From positions 1 through 29,684 of the IMG/VR virus record IMGVR_UViG_3300032050_007149: a stretch of DNA of 29,684 nucleotides. One strand, 5' to 3'. A program made the translations under genes and the position numbers. Each line of letters starts with the position of its first letter. The first letter of the stretch is position 1. Origin of the DNA: a virus. Under the pieces are notes generated by a model. It saw only the letters and a list, made by a program, of their open reading frames with translations. It was not told the origin of the DNA and did no database searches. This document shows positions 18,439 to 29,684 of this stretch, piece after piece.

Positions 18439-18864
18439 ATGAACGCATTAACACGATTTGACACTCAAGCTCTAAACAGAGCACTTATTGGATTTGACAG
18501 CCTTTTCAACGATGTTGAAAAGCGATTTGCAAACTCCGTACAAACTAACTATCCTCCATACAACGTACTAAAACATGATGACGATCACTTTGAGATCGAA
18601 ATCGCTGTGGCAGGCTTTGACAAAGAGGATGTTACTATTGAGGTTGATCAAAATTTGCTGACTATCAAAGGCACTCGTTTAAAAGATGACAATGCTAGCA
18701 AATACCTACACCGAGGTCTTGCTGCTCGCGACTTTGAACGATCATTTACACTTGCAGAACACATGGTTGTGGGCGATGCAGAGTTGACTAATGGTATCTT
18801 AAGTGTTAAACTAACACGTGAAGTACCTGAAGCACTCAAGCCTCGTTTGATTGCAATTAAGTAA
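18439..18864 (+). CDS. hsp20: Small heat shock protein Hsp20 (IbpA-like)
   Basis: 141 residues from ATG 18439, chosen because AAGGAG lies 6 bases upstream; a TTG at 18418 would put the start inside the leader hairpin. The alpha-crystallin domain spans about 35-125: YPPYNVLKHDDDHFEIEIAV, FDKEDVTIEV, then LTIKGTRL and LTNGILSVKLTREVPE, with a dimerisation loop and C-terminal anchor PRLIAIK (I-x-I type). T4-like marine phages commonly carry such a gene, thought to protect proteins during head assembly. It ends at a strong terminator, so it is a unit of its own under a late promoter. Confidence 0.92.
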   Translation: MNALTRFDTQALNRALIGFDSLFNDVEKRFANSVQTNYPPYNVLKHDDDHFEIEIAVAGFDKEDVTIEVDQNLLTIKGTRLKDDNASKYLHRGLAARDFERSFTLAEHMVVGDAELTNGILSVKLTREVPEALKPRLIAIK

Positions 18865-18873
18865 ATATTATTA

Positions 18874-18898
18874 GGGGGAGGCAACTCCCCCACTTTTT
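18874..18898 (+). terminator. Rho-independent terminator after hsp20
   Basis: GGGGGAG (18874-18880), loop GCAA, CTCCCCC (18885-18891), then AC and five T. The stem is perfect and GC-rich, with a GNRA-type loop. It separates hsp20 from clpS. Confidence 0.88.
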
Positions 18899-22671: not shown

Positions 22672-23151
22672 ATGATCAAAATCACAGTAGGACTCTGTCT
22701 AGTTGCTGCGGCGGCAGTGGCAAACGCAGAATTAGTACACCAATTTAAAAATCCAGCCTTTAACGGCCAAGGATGGAGTAGTCACGCATTGACTATAGAC
22801 AGCATTGAGAAGAGTCGCAAGGATTCTATTGAAGCTGATAAAAAAGCTGCGATTGCTAAGGCTGAAACAGATTTATTAAATACACCTTTGAATAGATTTA
22901 TGGGTCTATTCCAAAGTCAAGTTTATGCACAGTTGGCAACACAACTCAGCAACAACTTATTTCAAAACAAGTGTGCGGCAGCAGACGGCGGCACTATTCC
23001 AGGTTGCGTTAACCCATCTACTGGTAATTTTGTATTAGATGGTAATACAGTGACCTGGACTAAAAATGCCAACAATGTAACATTAACCGTAGTTGATGCT
23101 AAAGGCACTAGAACTACTGTTGTAGTGCCAATTGCCAGCTTTAGCTTTTAA
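22672..23151 (+). CDS. csgF: Curli assembly factor CsgF
   Basis: 159 residues. A Sec signal peptide (VGLCLVAAAAVANA) is cleaved before ELVHQFKNPAFNGQG, the conserved CsgF N-terminus (FQFRNPNFGGN in E. coli) that plugs into the CsgG pore. The helical middle (NTPLNRFMGLFQSQVYAQL) and the C-terminal strands (GNFVLDGNTVTWTKN, VTLTVVDAKGTRTTV) also match CsgF. An insert with two cysteines (NKCAAADGGTIPGCVN, about 102-117), absent from E. coli CsgF as I recall it, may form a disulfide loop. It guides curlin nucleation at the outer membrane. csgG starts 9 bases later. Confidence 0.88.
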   Translation: MIKITVGLCLVAAAAVANAELVHQFKNPAFNGQGWSSHALTIDSIEKSRKDSIEADKKAAIAKAETDLLNTPLNRFMGLFQSQVYAQLATQLSNNLFQNKCAAADGGTIPGCVNPSTGNFVLDGNTVTWTKNANNVTLTVVDAKGTRTTVVVPIASFSF

Positions 23152-23160
23152 AGAACAAAC

Positions 23161-23967
23161 ATGAACATGATTAAATTATCCTTAATAGCGTTGGCAGCAA
23201 CAGTATTAACAGGTTGCGCTAGTTTTAGACCTACGTTTGATGCAGAAGTAGTAGGCGAAGCTAAGGTAAGCGAAACAATTAGTAAAAACTTTGACAAGAT
23301 TGCTGCACCTGATGGAGCACCTATTGCTATTGCAGTATACGGCTTTACTGATAAGACAGGCCAGCGTAAACCAAGCAATACATTGAGCTTGTTTAGCACA
23401 GCAGTTACACAAGGTGCAGAAGCATACTTGATTAAAAGTTTACAAGAAGTTGGCAATCGTCAATGGTTCACAGTTGTTGAGCGTGTTGGCCTAGACAACT
23501 TGTTAAAAGAACGTCAGATGATCAAACAGACACGTGAGATCTACGAAGGCGATAAAGCGAAGATGTTACCTCCGTTAACTATGGCAGGTGTCATTCTTGA
23601 AGGCGCTATTGTTGACTACAATAGCAACACACTAACAGGCGGAACTGGAGCACGTTGGTTAGGTGTGGGACCTTTTACCCAATATACACAAGATCTAGTT
23701 GTTATTAGTTTACGACTGGTCAGCGTACAAACTGGGGAAGTACTAACTACTGTGACAGTAGAGAAGAATTTATTAAGCACTGCCGAAGGCGTCACTGCTC
23801 TTAGATTTTTCAATCAAGCAACTCGAGCATTTGAATTTGATGCGAGTCAGACTTTTAACGAACCAGGCAATTATGCACTACGTTCAGCTATTGAAACAGC
23901 AGTCATTGAATTAATCAACAAAGGACAACGTCAGAACCTTTGGAAATTTAAGGAGCAGAAAAAATGA
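23161..23967 (+). CDS. csgG: Curli secretion channel CsgG (outer-membrane lipoprotein)
   Basis: 268 residues. The lipobox LTGC gives a lipidated Cys after an 18-residue signal. CsgG hallmarks follow: YGFTDKTGQRKPSN, LFSTAVTQGAEAYL, WFTVVERVGLDNLLKERQMI, GVILEGAIVDYNSNTLTGG with GARWLGVG, and FNEPGNYALRSAIETAVIEL. It forms a nonameric pore for curlin export. The constriction loop between RKP and FSTAV is one residue longer than in E. coli, and Leu replaces Asn55 while Phe56 is kept; the Tyr51 equivalent is missing. It overlaps the curlin-like gene by ATGA. Confidence 0.93.
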   Translation: MNMIKLSLIALAATVLTGCASFRPTFDAEVVGEAKVSETISKNFDKIAAPDGAPIAIAVYGFTDKTGQRKPSNTLSLFSTAVTQGAEAYLIKSLQEVGNRQWFTVVERVGLDNLLKERQMIKQTREIYEGDKAKMLPPLTMAGVILEGAIVDYNSNTLTGGTGARWLGVGPFTQYTQDLVVISLRLVSVQTGEVLTTVTVEKNLLSTAEGVTALRFFNQATRAFEFDASQTFNEPGNYALRSAIETAVIELINKGQRQNLWKFKEQKK

Positions 23968-24758
23968 AAAAAACAATATTAGCAATTGTGTTGGCAGCGG
24001 CATTACCAGCCATGGCGCAGACAGCAGTGTCTGCTCCTACAACACCAACAATCCCAACAATGGTAACAGTTAGCCCTAATGCTACAGCAGCATTGGCCAG
24101 CTCAACTACCAACCGTGTGTTTATTGACCAAAGCGGTGCAAACCCTAACGTCAACGTAACACAAGAAGGTACCGGCAACAAGGCAGGATCGGATACTCGT
24201 CCAGTATATCTACGTGGTATTGACCAAACTGTTGTTACTCGTCAGATTGGCAACAACAACGAAATTATGTTAGAAGCAGTCAATGCTACAACTGGGACAG
24301 GTCAAGGAGTTAAAGTTACTATTCAACAAATTGGTAACAGCAACAAAGTTGATGCAGCTTGCGGATACGGCACAAGTACAAGCGGATCAGGCAGTGTAGC
24401 ATTAACAGGTTGTAAAGCAGCTGACTTGAACTGGAAGTTTGACGGCAATAGTAACGAACTACAGTTCCGTGGTACTGGTGCTGATCTAAAGAGTGCTATT
24501 GATGTAAAAGGCAACACTAACAAGTTCTATATGGATGTCATTGGTGACAAGCACACACAAACTATCAAAGTTGTAGGTGATACTAACACTATGAATATCA
24601 ACCAAAGCAACACAGGTTCAGCAGGTAGCAGCATTTGGATTGATCTAAACGGTTCAAGCAATACTATGACTATTGCTCAAACTGGGACTATTGACCATGT
24701 GTTAAACATCAAGAGTGTCAGCACAGGCGGCACATTCAATATCGTTCAGAAGAACTAA
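23964..24758 (+). CDS. Secreted curlin-repeat protein
   Basis: 264 residues with a Sec signal (ILAIVLAAALPAMAQ). The mature part carries degenerate curlin units of the form Q-x-G-x-x-N-x5-Q, for example QQIGNSNKV, DGNSNELQF, KGNTNKFYMDV, VGDTNTMNINQ, NGSSNTMTIAQ. These Ser/Asn/Gln-rich strands are the amyloid unit of CsgA/CsgB. It is longer and less regular than CsgA (about 150), with a Cys pair around the segment ACGYGTSTS...LTGC, possibly a disulfide loop. Likely substrate of the CsgG pore encoded just upstream (start on the csgG stop). Confidence 0.85.
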   Translation: MKKTILAIVLAAALPAMAQTAVSAPTTPTIPTMVTVSPNATAALASSTTNRVFIDQSGANPNVNVTQEGTGNKAGSDTRPVYLRGIDQTVVTRQIGNNNEIMLEAVNATTGTGQGVKVTIQQIGNSNKVDAACGYGTSTSGSGSVALTGCKAADLNWKFDGNSNELQFRGTGADLKSAIDVKGNTNKFYMDVIGDKHTQTIKVVGDTNTMNINQSNTGSAGSSIWIDLNGSSNTMTIAQTGTIDHVLNIKSVSTGGTFNIVQKN

Positions 24759-24788
24759 GAGGCTGCTATGAGAGCAGCCCTCTTTTTC
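24759..24788 (+). terminator. Terminator-like hairpin with the FecR start codon in its loop
   Basis: GGCTGCT (24761-24767), loop ATGAG (24768-24772), AGCAGCC (24773-24779), then CTC and TTTTT (24783-24787). G59/A58 can extend the stem past a bulged A. The shape is that of an intrinsic terminator placed across the start of the FecR gene, so it could both end transcripts after the curlin gene and limit translation of FecR. Confidence 0.6.
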
Positions 24789-25907
24789 TCAGCATTATTT
24801 CTTGCGGGCTCAGCCTGGGCCAATATTGGTTCAGTTACTGAGTCTACAGGTGTTGCTGTTATTAAAAGAGGAAAAGAAACTATTGCTATCGCCAAAGGTA
24901 CAGTAGTTCAAACCAACGACAAGATTGAAACTAAAAACGGCAAGGTAAAAGTTGTATTCAAAGATGATACGGCTGTTACAGTAACTGAAAGCAGTGCATT
25001 GGTCATTGACGACTTTGTTTATGATCCAAAGAGCGGAGCAGGTAAGTTAGGCCTTAAAGCCACTGCTGGCGCTGTGCGATATGTATCTGGCAGTATTGCC
25101 AAAGATCCTAAGAATGTAAAAATCAACACACCTACCGCAGCCATTACTGTTCGCGGTACTGACTTTGTTATGGCAGTGAGCGAAACTGGCGGCAGTATGA
25201 TTATGTTGATGCCTACATGTGAAATAGAACAAGGTATCAACTTGAAAGGTCTTACATGCGGTAGCGGAGCTATTGATGTAGAAACGCCTGCTGGCATAGT
25301 CAAAATGAATCGCCCTTATCAGGCTACTATTGTAGAAACTGCAGGTGCTGCTCCATTGCCTCCTATCACCGTAAATCTAAGTGGAGCCCCTATTGGTACT
25401 AACCTTTTAATTACTCCTCCCAAGACTGCTGGAGGTGTTAGTATTGTAGCTGCTGCTCGTGCTGCTGCTGAACGTACTGGCGACGCCAAGCGCGATGATA
25501 AAAAAGACGACAAAGAAGACAAGGATGATGCTAAAGATGGTGAAAAGCAACATGTAGCATCAAAGCAAGGCGATGATAGACAACGTCAAAATTCTCAGCA
25601 ATCGCGAGAAACAACTACTAAGGTAGAAGCAATTGATACTAAAAAGTTAGATGTTGCAGTGGGCGATGTCGGCACAGAAAATCCCAATGTTAAAAAGATT
25701 TGGAAAGATCGAAGCGAAACACAGCAAGTGGGATGGCAATATGAAAGTTTAAGTAGTAATGGTAATAACTATGCCAATGTTAGTTTACCTATGGATACAA
25801 AAGCATTGGTTATTGTTACACAGGATCGAGTTGTTGATGCTTTCAACTTTAATACTCAAAGCACTAAGTCATACGGACTGATTGTTATCAATCAGACATA
25901 CAGATGA
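24768..25907 (+). CDS. FecR-domain secreted/periplasmic protein
   Basis: 379 residues. Signal peptide ALFFSALFLAGSAWA; FecR domain about 45-155, with KRGKETIAIAKGTVVQTNDKI, FKDDTAVTVTESSALVIDDF, and NTPTAAITVRGTDFVMAV (the VRGTDF signature). There is no cytoplasmic anti-sigma part, unlike classical FecR. A charged repeat linker (KRDDKKDDKEDKDDAKDGEK, about 242-261) leads to a C-terminal beta domain. Stand-alone FecR proteins often sit beside CHASE2 cyclases in bacteria, as here, so it may be a periplasmic partner or ligand of the downstream CHASE2 sensor. The start codon lies in a terminator-like hairpin. Confidence 0.85.
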   Translation: MRAALFFSALFLAGSAWANIGSVTESTGVAVIKRGKETIAIAKGTVVQTNDKIETKNGKVKVVFKDDTAVTVTESSALVIDDFVYDPKSGAGKLGLKATAGAVRYVSGSIAKDPKNVKINTPTAAITVRGTDFVMAVSETGGSMIMLMPTCEIEQGINLKGLTCGSGAIDVETPAGIVKMNRPYQATIVETAGAAPLPPITVNLSGAPIGTNLLITPPKTAGGVSIVAAARAAAERTGDAKRDDKKDDKEDKDDAKDGEKQHVASKQGDDRQRQNSQQSRETTTKVEAIDTKKLDVAVGDVGTENPNVKKIWKDRSETQQVGWQYESLSSNGNNYANVSLPMDTKALVIVTQDRVVDAFNFNTQSTKSYGLIVINQTYR

Positions 25908-27748
25908 AAAAGATATTTCTTGCACTGTTATTGTTGTGCTCTAATGCGTTTGGAGCCTTGACAGATATAAAATTCGGGAAATACCAAATCGCTGATAGTC
26001 AATGGAATGTCAGTGCCTGTTTGAATACAACAACCTGTCAAATCTACAGTAAGAATCCAGGAACAATGTACAAAATACCCTGGACCGCTGGAACTTGGAA
26101 TTGGCAAGCAGGTCAATATGTTCAATTTGCAACAACTGGTAATGGCAGTTATCCTTACGAAGGTAAAGTTTACAATAGCAATGGCACACAAGCAGGAACT
26201 ATCGGCACAGGTAAAATTGTTAATATGGGCCCAGATTATTTCTTCTTTGTGGGCAACGACAACAATACAGGACAACTATTCAGCGGCAGTTCGGGTATGA
26301 GCAATACCAGCGGAGTGTCGTGGACTGGTACACTTAATCCAACTATACAACAGGCCGACACTTATGCTAATGCATCTTATTCCACAGTCCCGTTAAGTTC
26401 AGGACAGACTGCTACATCTACTCCTAGTAGTTCACCTCCTCCGCCCACTTATGGAGTAAACTTTACACGAGTCACTAGTTATGAATGGCGTAGTTACACA
26501 GCAGGTACTCAACCTATTAGCAGTGAACAAGCACACGAAGCATTTGACGGCAACAACGGCAGCAAATGGTTTGGACTCAGAAGTCAGGGTGCTTGGGCTG
26601 TTGTGCAATTTGTAACAGATGGGACATATTCTCCAACCAGGGCTGTACAGAAAATACAGTTTGTCACAGCCAATGACGCATCTAACCGCGATCCATCGGG
26701 ATTTAGAGTATGGGGCAGTGTCAACGGATATGACTGGGTGCTGATATCAGAGCAAGCAATATCATTGCCTACTGGCAGATACGCAGAGAGCACTGTTTAT
26801 AGTTTAAACAATGTCACTGCTTTTAGTTATTACAAAATAGAATTCACCGGATCCAGAGACGGCGGCGATGCGTTCCAAGTGGCTGAGATTAGATTGCTTT
26901 ACGATGTAGATGATCCACAAGGCACACAAGCGGGGGGTGGTGTGTATGTTGCTCCTGCTTGGCCTTCAACCAGTGACATATCAATAGCACAAACTGCACA
27001 GCGTAACTCAGCAAAGAGTCGTGTATCAAACATAGTATTAGGCAATAGCTTGCATCTTGAACAAAAGATAGGTAGCAGCAATAACTCAGTGACTATTGAA
27101 CAAACTGGTAACTATAACAAGATTGCAGGCATTGGTGGCGGAACTTATGCTGTCGTAGATGGCGATAATAATATAGTTAACATCAAACAAGGTGATACTT
27201 TAGGTAAGAACTTGATTGAGTTCAACATAGTAGGCAACACTAACAATGTAACCATATGGCAAGCACGTAATCCAACAACAGGTTTACAAGACGGTGGTGA
27301 AAGTGGCGGACACTACATTGGATTAAATGTAAATGGCAGCACCAATACATTAAGCTTAAAACAGAGCAATACTGGAGGTGCAACATCAGGACACTTTGCC
27401 TATGTTGATGTAACGGGCAACAACAATCAAGGCACATTAACACAGTCAAATAACAGTGAAAAAACGTTCTTTGGCATAGTTAACGGCAACTACAATGTGT
27501 TTAATGTTACACAGCAGGGCGGTATAAACTACTTTGATTTAAGTTTAACTGGTTACGGGCATAACGTTACTGCTAACCAAAAGGACTCAGGTAGCCATAA
27601 AGCTACTATTAACCTAACTAATGCAGGCGGCGCCAGCACAGTTAACCTTGTACAACAAGGTGCTACAGCACAAAACATCAATATTACACAGCAATGCGCT
27701 ACGCTATCAGGATGCTCAGTTAGCGTCACACAGGGTGGAGGCCCATAA
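25904..27748 (+). CDS. Discoidin-like/curlin-repeat fusion, secreted
   Basis: 614 residues. Signal peptide MKKIFLALLLLCSNAFG; domain of about 145 residues of unknown type; Pro/Ser linker (TPSSSPPPPT); an F5/8 type C (discoidin-like) domain about 186-332 (SSEQAHEAFDGNNGSKWFG, FRVWGSVNGYDWVLISEQ, FQVAEIRLLYD); then about 260 residues of curlin-like repeats (SVTIEQTGNYNKIAG, NVTIWQARN, TLSLKQSNTG, VFNVTQQGG, VNLVQQGA). The discoidin-type domain would bind sugars or lipids on a cell or particle, while the repeats add to an amyloid fibre. Its ATG overlaps the FecR stop by four bases. This arrangement suggests an adhesive curli-like surface protein exported by CsgG. Confidence 0.82.
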   Translation: MKKIFLALLLLCSNAFGALTDIKFGKYQIADSQWNVSACLNTTTCQIYSKNPGTMYKIPWTAGTWNWQAGQYVQFATTGNGSYPYEGKVYNSNGTQAGTIGTGKIVNMGPDYFFFVGNDNNTGQLFSGSSGMSNTSGVSWTGTLNPTIQQADTYANASYSTVPLSSGQTATSTPSSSPPPPTYGVNFTRVTSYEWRSYTAGTQPISSEQAHEAFDGNNGSKWFGLRSQGAWAVVQFVTDGTYSPTRAVQKIQFVTANDASNRDPSGFRVWGSVNGYDWVLISEQAISLPTGRYAESTVYSLNNVTAFSYYKIEFTGSRDGGDAFQVAEIRLLYDVDDPQGTQAGGGVYVAPAWPSTSDISIAQTAQRNSAKSRVSNIVLGNSLHLEQKIGSSNNSVTIEQTGNYNKIAGIGGGTYAVVDGDNNIVNIKQGDTLGKNLIEFNIVGNTNNVTIWQARNPTTGLQDGGESGGHYIGLNVNGSTNTLSLKQSNTGGATSGHFAYVDVTGNNNQGTLTQSNNSEKTFFGIVNGNYNVFNVTQQGGINYFDLSLTGYGHNVTANQKDSGSHKATINLTNAGGASTVNLVQQGATAQNINITQQCATLSGCSVSVTQGGGP

Positions 27749-27760
27749 GGGCAATAAGGT

Positions 27761-27789
27761 TAAATAATAGTATGAAAAAAATACTATTA
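27761..27789 (+). promoter_or_regulatory. Late promoter with leaderless start and start-codon inverted repeat
   Basis: TAAATA at 27761-27766 predicts +1 at 27772, exactly the ATG of the cyclase gene; no ribosome site is present. TAATAGTAT (27765-27773) and ATACTATTA (27781-27789) form a perfect 9-bp repeat with loop GAAAAAA. Only read-through RNA from the curli-like genes contains the whole left arm. Confidence 0.68.
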
Positions 27790-29684
27790 AGTCCTTGGAC
27801 AGCACTAATAACATTAGCCATAATTGTAGGCATCAGATTTGCAGATCCTGCATTTGTAGAAAGCGTAAGACTACGCTACTTTGATCAACTGGTCACAAGT
27901 CAACCTGCAAAAGATATTCCTGTACACACAGTTAATATCGATGAAGCAGCATTGGACAAGTATGGACAGTTTCCATTCAGTCGCGATATCTATGCTGAAA
28001 TCATTCGAGACTTGTACAAGCGTGAAGCAGGATTAGTTGTATTCAACATATTACTTGCTGAAAAAGATCGTTTTGGAAAAGATCCTGTACTTGCAGCTAC
28101 ATTAGAAAAACATGCTGTGATATTGCCTAACTTGGGTTCAATGCAAAACAAGAACACAGCACATGGATCGCCAGCAGCAGTTATTGGACAAGACCCTGCA
28201 GGATTAGTTGTAGAGTATCCAGGCATATTAAGCAACATTGATATGTTAGGTGAACGAGCAGCAGGTGTTGGTATGGTCAACACATTTCCTGAAGTAGACG
28301 GTGTAGTTCGTCGTACTCCATTAGTAATTTACAGTCAAGAACATTTGTATCCCAGTTTAGCACTGGAAACACTTCGTGTAGCAGCTGGTGATAAAAACTT
28401 CCAAATTAAGATCGGTGAGATGGGTGTAGAAGCACTTAGAGTTCCTAAGTTTGGTAAGATTGCAACGGATGATATCAGTCGTGTATGGATTGATTGGTCA
28501 GCAACTCCTAAACAACACAGCCTTGCTAAAATGCCCGCAAGCTTCAACGGTGAAATTGTTATTGTAGGATTAAGTGCAGCAGGATTAGTACAGCCAGTGG
28601 CAACCAGCAAGGGAGAAGTATGGCCGCAAGACCTACAGGCAGCAGCATTGGGCACAATGATGACGGGCACAACTATCCAACGTCCTGGCTACGCAGATAC
28701 TGCCGAAGTAATAGCCATTGTGATAGCAGGCTTACTATTATTATTTTTAACAAGGTGGACATATGTTGGACTTGCCGCAGTGGTTGTATTGGTCGGTGGG
28801 GGTATTGCTGGCAGTATTCTTGCTTACAGTAATCTTCTATTCTTATTCGATGCTACTGCCTTTGCAGTTGGCACAACTTTGGTCGCTTTGCATGCCTATG
28901 GCATCAAGTTTGTAAGTGAGTTCTTACAGAAGCAACAGATCAAGAAACAATTTGGCGGTTATGTTAATCCTATTATCGTAGAACGCTTACAGAAAGATCC
29001 AAGTTTTATCAAACTCGGTGGCGAAAAGAAAGACCTAACAGTTATCATGAGCGACATGCGTAACTTTACTGGACTCGGTGAAACTTACGGTGATGACGTT
29101 GTGGCATTTACACATACTATGAATCGTTACATGACTGCCATTGCAGAACCTATACTACGTAACAATGGATGTTTGATCAAATTCATCGGCGATGCAAGTC
29201 TACACGTACACGGTGCTCCTATTCAAGAAGAACAAGATCCAGATCATGTACTTGCAGGTGTACGCACAGGTCTTGAAATGTTACACGCTGTTGAACTGTT
29301 TAACATTGAGCTTACCAAAGAAGGCAAGCCATTAGTAGGTTGCGGATTGGGTATCAACACAGGTCCTACACTGATTGGTAACATTGGTAGTAAGGACCGT
29401 TTTGGCTATGACGTCTTAGGTGACTCAGTTAGTTTAACAGCACGTCTAGAAGGACAAACTAAGAACTACGGTGTGCTAATTATCATCAGTGAGTTTACAC
29501 AAGCTCGTGTAGGTGACAACTACTTTACAATTCCGTTAGACTGCATTGCTGTTAAAGGTAAGACCATCGGTGTTAACATATTCACAGTGTTTTACAATCC
29601 AGATGTTACAGTGGCAGCAGATTGGATTAGTGCCCGTGAGCATCATGAACTGATGTTGCAGTATTATCGTGAACAGCAATGGGA
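27772..29684 (+). CDS. CHASE2 sensor-class III adenylate/guanylate cyclase (partial)
   Basis: Open to the window end, 637 codons seen. An N-terminal membrane helix (about 10-22) leads to a periplasmic CHASE2 domain (about 25-305; RLRYFDQLV, VNIDEAALDKYGQFPFSRD, GVGMVNTFPEVDGVVRR), three membrane helices (about 311-376) and a cytoplasmic cyclase domain (about 415-600). Metal-binding Asp428 (MSDMRNFT) and Asp474 (FIGDAS), Lys470 (base recognition) and Arg558 are present, but the transition-state Asn is Ser554 (GDSVSLTARLEG). It would sense an outer signal and make cAMP, or be impaired in catalysis. It follows the curli-like genes by 23 bases and has its own late promoter. Confidence 0.88.
   Translation, partial: MKKILLSPWTALITLAIIVGIRFADPAFVESVRLRYFDQLVTSQPAKDIPVHTVNIDEAALDKYGQFPFSRDIYAEIIRDLYKREAGLVVFNILLAEKDRFGKDPVLAATLEKHAVILPNLGSMQNKNTAHGSPAAVIGQDPAGLVVEYPGILSNIDMLGERAAGVGMVNTFPEVDGVVRRTPLVIYSQEHLYPSLALETLRVAAGDKNFQIKIGEMGVEALRVPKFGKIATDDISRVWIDWSATPKQHSLAKMPASFNGEIVIVGLSAAGLVQPVATSKGEVWPQDLQAAALGTMMTGTTIQRPGYADTAEVIAIVIAGLLLLFLTRWTYVGLAAVVVLVGGGIAGSILAYSNLLFLFDATAFAVGTTLVALHAYGIKFVSEFLQKQQIKKQFGGYVNPIIVERLQKDPSFIKLGGEKKDLTVIMSDMRNFTGLGETYGDDVVAFTHTMNRYMTAIAEPILRNNGCLIKFIGDASLHVHGAPIQEEQDPDHVLAGVRTGLEMLHAVELFNIELTKEGKPLVGCGLGINTGPTLIGNIGSKDRFGYDVLGDSVSLTARLEGQTKNYGVLIIISEFTQARVGDNYFTIPLDCIAVKGKTIGVNIFTVFYNPDVTVAADWISAREHHELMLQYYREQQW

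Follow-up and report, generated by a model that had tools for sequence, protein, structure and literature searches.

The boundary between the curlin and FecR genes of a phage curli operon carries an RNA hairpin that, judging from comparison of related junctions, is real, conserved and under selection within one phage lineage. The hairpin is predicted to sequester the FecR start codon, and we consider it somewhat probable (roughly 0.6) that it acts as a translational brake that also couples FecR synthesis to translation of curlin. Elements of this kind are known, but the conserved curlin/FecR instance is new.

Results

The window, by which we mean the whole 29,684-base virus record that was analysed, is a phage fragment bearing a curli operon on its + strand. 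The genes are, in order, CsgF (22672–23151), CsgG (23161–23967), curlin, the fibre subunit (23964–24758), a FecR-domain protein (24768–25907), a second protein that we take to be curlin-like on account of its repeats and the established gene order (25904–27748), and a CHASE2-adenylate/guanylate cyclase cut by the window end (27772–29682). Pfam matches follow the same order (CsgF, CsgG, FecR, and CHASE2 plus a cyclase domain); the curlin match (Curlin_rpt, 19.6 bits) falls just under the Pfam cut-off of 20.7, and the second curlin-like protein has a weak F5/8 type C match, also below cut-off. In the window, the start of this second curlin gene and the FecR stop share 4 nt (ATGA). Given an apparent N-terminal signal sequence (judged by eye) and a FecR domain as its sole Pfam match, the FecR protein is unproven as a gene regulator, the label it carried in the first-pass annotation. 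A Burkholderia biofilm operon in which, according to sections of PMC5192318, a FecR-domain protein with a predicted signal peptide adjoins a CHASE2 sensor may be a parallel for the pairing of FecR with a CHASE2 cyclase here.

At the curlin/FecR boundary an exact 7-bp inverted repeat, GGCTGCT/AGCAGCC, has its arms at 24761–24767 and 24773–24779 and occurs only once in the window. In the predicted RNA fold, flanking A-U and G-C pairs lengthen the stem to 11 bp with a single bulged C (24757–24784), and the FecR ATG (24768–24770) sits in a 5-nt apical loop, AUGAG (24768–24772), so that the start codon is predicted to be unpaired at the tip while the Shine-Dalgarno-like AGAGG (24758–24762) lies in the stem. 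The 5′ arm (24757–24767) is formed by the intergenic spacer together with the two A of the curlin stop codon UAA (TAA in DNA; 24756–24758), which pair at the stem foot, and the 3′ arm with its bulged C (24773–24784) lies within FecR codons 2–6. A run of five U followed by C (24783–24787 for the run) belongs to Leu-Phe-Phe codons of the signal sequence, the two U at its 5′ end being able to pair with the final AA of the curlin stop codon. The 51-nt fold at the FecR start has an energy of −17.5 kcal/mol (z −3.05), which 0 of 200 dinucleotide shuffles reached, and its core persists in a 241-nt fold. These coordinates, the fold and the shuffles bear out the original observation of a hairpin covering the curlin stop and the FecR start with the ATG in its loop.

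Among the 37 window gene starts examined, that of FecR is the most structured, the next reaching −11.4 and the others averaging −4.5. For the window on its own, stricter nulls give modest support, the native energy being reached in 109 of 5000 trials of synonymous recoding and in 63 of 5000 of spacer shuffling; strong support for the fold comes from the relatives.

Scanning viral contigs for FecR yielded 323 matching relatives, from which 80 loci were kept; our junction rule gave no junction in 12 of 80 loci. An alignment scan likewise kept 80 loci, mostly on contigs already in the FecR scan, and a junction pattern fixing neither hairpin arm found 17 stretches, two of them on new contigs (L084 and L087). 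The loci nearest in FecR (59–66% identity) all have the hairpin at the start. We defined group A, after the junctions had been seen, as 24 sequences including the window; once identical junctions (L003, L008, L010 and L011) were removed, 20 distinct junctions were left, the window and 19 others, L043 having been excluded beforehand for a junction identical to that of L013. Group B consists of loci with 47–59% FecR identity plus a few others, and comprised 20 distinct junctions in the swap, synonymous and spacer tests described below (duplicates were excluded, as were L042 and L046, whose genes overlap) and 22 in the counts of start codons and MFE, in which L042 and L046 were included. In a FecR tree, from which L084 was left out and in which L087 was retained though its protein is cut to 83 aa, the A/B split, and with it a single origin of group A, is poorly supported (46/24), while a 16-row FecR clade has 100/100 support. 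Dating the hairpin from this tree was abandoned because the split has a support of only 46/24. Among the wider relatives, 8 of 42 distinct loci have a candidate start at −11 or lower, but start choice is uncertain there, the low-energy starts often being internal TTG or GTG codons; only L179–L183 of 11 bacterial loci entered this set.

The hairpin is kept in all 20 distinct group-A junctions, with differing stem sequences and registers. In each predicted fold the ribosome-binding site is buried and the AUG is in or beside the loop, which takes the form AUGAG, AUGA, AUGAGA, AAUGAG, AAUGAGA, AAUGAGAC, or GAGA/GAAA where the first two letters of the AUG are paired. The MFE over positions −20 to +30 is −9 or lower in 20 of 20 junctions (mean −15.1 kcal/mol), as compared to a mean of −4.4 (sd 2.9) for 152 other ORF starts in the same loci, one of which was at −14 or lower. 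One contig, IMGVR_UViG_3300042868_005134 (383,411 bases), holds two differing curlin/FecR junctions, L012 and L014, at opposite ends; both have the hairpin, in different registers.

The stability of the group-A fold depends on both arms. When spacers and coding sequences were swapped between partners, the mean energy weakened from a native −14.28 to −12.39 kcal/mol (sd 0.48), and 1 of 20000 swaps reached the native value; when each distinct 3′ arm was represented once (11 sequences) the figure was 11 of 20000, without the window 12 of 20000, and without the stop codon 205 of 20000. Synonymous recoding of codons 2–10 gave −9.65 (sd 0.61) and shuffling of the spacer −11.59, neither reaching the native value in 1000 trials; the result was also 0 of 1000 when the Shine-Dalgarno was kept and the rest of the spacer shuffled. 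Group B gave no such signal, the native value being reached by 10497 of 20000 swaps, 931 of 1000 synonymous recodings and 560 of 1000 spacer shuffles, and we rejected its members as carriers of the same element on the swap and synonymous tests.

Because group A had been drawn after viewing the junctions, the tests were repeated on the 16-row clade with 100/100 support, which was picked without regard to the hairpin. There, 0 of 500 synonymous recodings, 1 of 500 spacer shuffles and 621 of 20000 swaps reached the native value; for all 40 junctions of groups A and B the corresponding figures were 0 of 500, 1 of 500 and 6 of 20000. Covariation counted in a fixed register is weak, with 3 of 12 and 2 of 8 pairs changing on both sides, counts that shuffles often reach, in part because the helix slides; the A3 fixed-register count also took in the window and L002, whose stems form in another register. 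These comparisons suggest that selection for the fold beyond coding and composition is well supported, while pure covariation within the tight 16-row clade appears to have moderate support.

The same tests bear on the possibility that the fold is an unselected by-product that arises when signal-sequence codons rich in pyrimidines pair with a G-rich Shine-Dalgarno. Shuffled spacers do still fold at −11.6, so part of the stability is composition, and the weakness of fixed-register covariation is in keeping with such an origin. However, the synonymous and spacer nulls (0 of 1000 each) and the swap (1 of 20000) argue otherwise, and group B, with an equally strong Shine-Dalgarno, nevertheless gives no signal (931 and 560 of 1000), making a by-product highly improbable.

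The signal also has the polarity expected for RNA: the + strand folds more stably than the − strand in 17 of 20 group-A junctions. A palindrome acting at the DNA level was disfavoured for this reason, G-U pairs favouring the + strand in those 17, although the − strand still shows a weaker swap signal (14 of 20000).

The first-pass annotation had described the hairpin as terminator-like and proposed that it cuts FecR and downstream expression by ending transcription. The description is fair for the window, in which a GC-rich stem-loop is followed directly by five U (24783–24787) and a d'Aubenton-Carafa-type score is +5.7. As a main function, termination is not supported: the score is negative in the other 19 group-A junctions, and a U-run of 5 occurs in 1 of 20, the window, the longest run being at most 3 in the rest. 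Because the stem over the start codon is conserved and the U-run is found only in the window, a terminator is not the general function, and we rejected a conserved terminator on the ground that the U-run is not kept where the stem is kept. What evolution appears to keep is the stem over the start codon, with the U-run belonging to the Leu-Phe-Phe codons of the window's phage.

An intrinsic terminator or attenuator at this site would have RNA polymerase stop in part at 24783–24788, leaving FecR and downstream RNA below curlin RNA, and closely trailing curlin ribosomes would suppress it. The site was listed by a terminator scan of the window, but that scan's yield is near chance (16 sites as compared to 10.4 expected, sd 3.5). 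Judging by the usual ribosome footprint, the 5′ arm would be covered by a ribosome positioned at the curlin stop, which counts against this reading, as do the confinement of the U-run and positive score to one of the 20 junctions that keep the hairpin and the coding role of the five U. We thus regard termination as a decidedly unlikely explanation of the element, although partial termination in the window's phage is possible.

Two other hairpins in the window were seen. A perfect GGGGGAG/CTCCCCC-type hairpin followed by ACTTTTT (18874–18891), just past a gene ending at 18864, is a more classical terminator candidate than 24759–24788, and a two-way terminator-like hairpin of 10–12 bp (307–334) lies just after the end of the first open frame at 303.

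The FecR Shine-Dalgarno is strong in group A (mean duplex energy −7.9, as compared to −2.7 over the window genes) and is predicted to be mostly paired within the hairpin. The gap between the curlin stop and the FecR start is fixed, 9 nt in 18 of 20 junctions and 11 nt in the other two, whereas csgG and curlin are separated by anything from −4 to 149 nt. The start codon and Shine-Dalgarno lie within predicted structure in 20 of 20 junctions, and the stop is near enough for a ribosome to disrupt it. Further downstream, both FecR and the second curlin could be placed in 17 group-A loci, and in 12 of these they share a 4-nt overlap, which suggests that the second curlin may follow FecR.

Group B mostly lacks the hairpin, 6 of 22 junctions having an MFE of −9 or lower, and its FecR genes start with GUG in 17 of 22 cases, UUG in 2 and AUG in 3, so that GUG or UUG accounts for 19 of 22. 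Other genes of these loci mostly start with AUG (csgF, 21 of 21; csgG, 20 of 21; curlin, 21 of 22; second curlin, 15 of 19; cyclase, 10 of 10). Two of the three FecR exceptions, L042 and L046, overlap the curlin stop. The group-B Shine-Dalgarno is as strong as that of group A, and both groups thus pair a strong Shine-Dalgarno with a weakness, a buried AUG in A and a weak start codon in B. This is suggestive of GUG and UUG being another way to weaken FecR initiation; the pattern is no test of convergence, because the rows are related and the start codons were chosen by our own rule. In more distant operons such as L050, L063 and L068, curlin appears by eye to enter the FecR signal-sequence region in another frame, and the overlap may be tens of bases.

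Discussion

Given that all 20 distinct junctions retain the hairpin and that it is under selection there, it likely affects how much FecR is made relative to curlin. This part of the original proposal survives, though not through conserved termination; its second suggestion, that the hairpin acts on translation, appears from the junction sequences to be the better of the two. When curlin is not being translated, the hairpin would hide the Shine-Dalgarno and AUG, and new ribosomes would seldom start FecR. On reaching the curlin UAA, a ribosome would sit on the 5′ arm and melt the stem; FecR initiation would then fall mainly to such terminating ribosomes, or come just after them, and yield a fraction of the curlin output. 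The hairpin thus probably lowers FecR translation, and curlin translation probably opens it. The second curlin gene, overlapping the FecR stop by 4 nt, probably follows FecR, so its output would probably be lowered too, and we infer that the hairpin may set how much fibre subunit is made for each FecR and second curlin.

Sections of PMC12548453 describe an RNA-unfolding model of coupling, in which independent initiation is low and the downstream site is opened by upstream translation, with phage f1 genes VII/IX, E. coli atp and rpmI-rplT, and MS2 coat/lysis as examples. By analogy, the curlin/FecR junction has the layout of this model: a short gene boundary where the downstream ribosome-binding site lies within structure that upstream translation could open. 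Unlike those systems, as they are presented there, the curlin/FecR case is known from sequence and conservation, has a 9-nt gap, lies in a phage curli operon and, in many group-A members, places the curlin stop codon in the stem foot. A rule given in part of PMC10666635, that genes with gaps near +10 nt and a Shine-Dalgarno are more likely to initiate independently, counts against coupling at a 9–11-nt junction.

A reading with a different role for the curlin-ending ribosome is that the hairpin is a translation insulator, or ribosome termination structure, which blocks that ribosome and keeps FecR low whatever the curlin traffic. The strong structure does start at the stop codon, and like the structures described in sections of PMC7518266, which reduce downstream expression in a synthetic operon, it may be a stable fold right past a stop that limits the next gene. 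The same sections report such structures to be depleted where genes are less than 25 nt apart, whereas the fold here is strong and conserved at 9 nt; a stable fold just past the stop is thus present, but with a gap of 9–11 nt as opposed to at least 25 nt. With so short a gap, and with a strong Shine-Dalgarno and AUG kept inside the stem, the junction looks like coupling rather than a pure block, and an insulator is unlikely.

The MS2 coat protein represses replicase at a start-codon hairpin. A phage or host factor could similarly bind the junction hairpin as an operator and repress FecR; like the MS2 replicase operator, the hairpin has a start codon in its apical loop and lies at a boundary after a structural gene, its loop is always made of the letters of AUGARA, and in 10 of 20 cases it reads GAGA or GAAA, both of which fit GNRA. 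Unlike that operator, its loop size (4–8) and register vary and it has no known protein ligand. Furthermore, the loop letters are fixed by Met-Arg/Lys codons, there is no candidate binder, and an Rfam search of the window returned no matches at the gathering score. An operator is scarcely plausible.

Within the coupling-and-brake reading, a broader scheme may be entertained in which interchangeable brakes hold FecR initiation low relative to curlin across phage curli operons and set the ratio of subunit to FecR and second curlin. The proposed brakes are a selected start-codon hairpin with AUG in one lineage, GUG or UUG without a hairpin in sister lineages, and start/stop overlaps in others, with the U-run adding partial termination in the window. 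We hold this scheme only tentatively, as possible but doubtful. If true, interchangeable brakes would mean that the virus controls the stoichiometry of an amyloid that it encodes.

Selected control on FecR output suggests that the amount of FecR relative to fibre matters, which in turn would mean that FecR and curlin are expressed and used together. For the phage curli genes themselves, aggregation, uptake or lysis has been proposed in parts of PMC9599517 and PMC9004378. The junction, being compact and occurring naturally in many sequence variants, also provides a case for the debate over whether coupling proceeds by RNA unfolding or by reinitiation.

Pelagiphage curli operons carry FecR and adenylate cyclase according to sections of PMC9599517, and curli operons are treated further in parts of PMC9004378 (phage Melnitz) and PMC7029224. 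The gene order CsgF, CsgG, curlin, FecR, second curlin and cyclase is shared with the pelagiphage operon, being annotated in the records of Pelagibacter phage HTVC008M and Methylophilales phage Melnitz. Unlike in the window, the HTVC008M junction has an annotated gap of 2 nt and a weak fold and that of Melnitz an annotated overlap and a weak fold, and FecR is ∼45% identical over half its length. No RNA hairpin is mentioned in the available portions of PMC9599517, PMC9004378 and PMC7029224, and searches confined to one open-access collection turned up no publication describing such a hairpin in the curli operons of phages. The Melnitz record (L191, MZ577097.1) annotates two curlin-associated repeat proteins beside FecR, in contrast to a statement in part of PMC9004378 that Melnitz lacks csgA and csgB.
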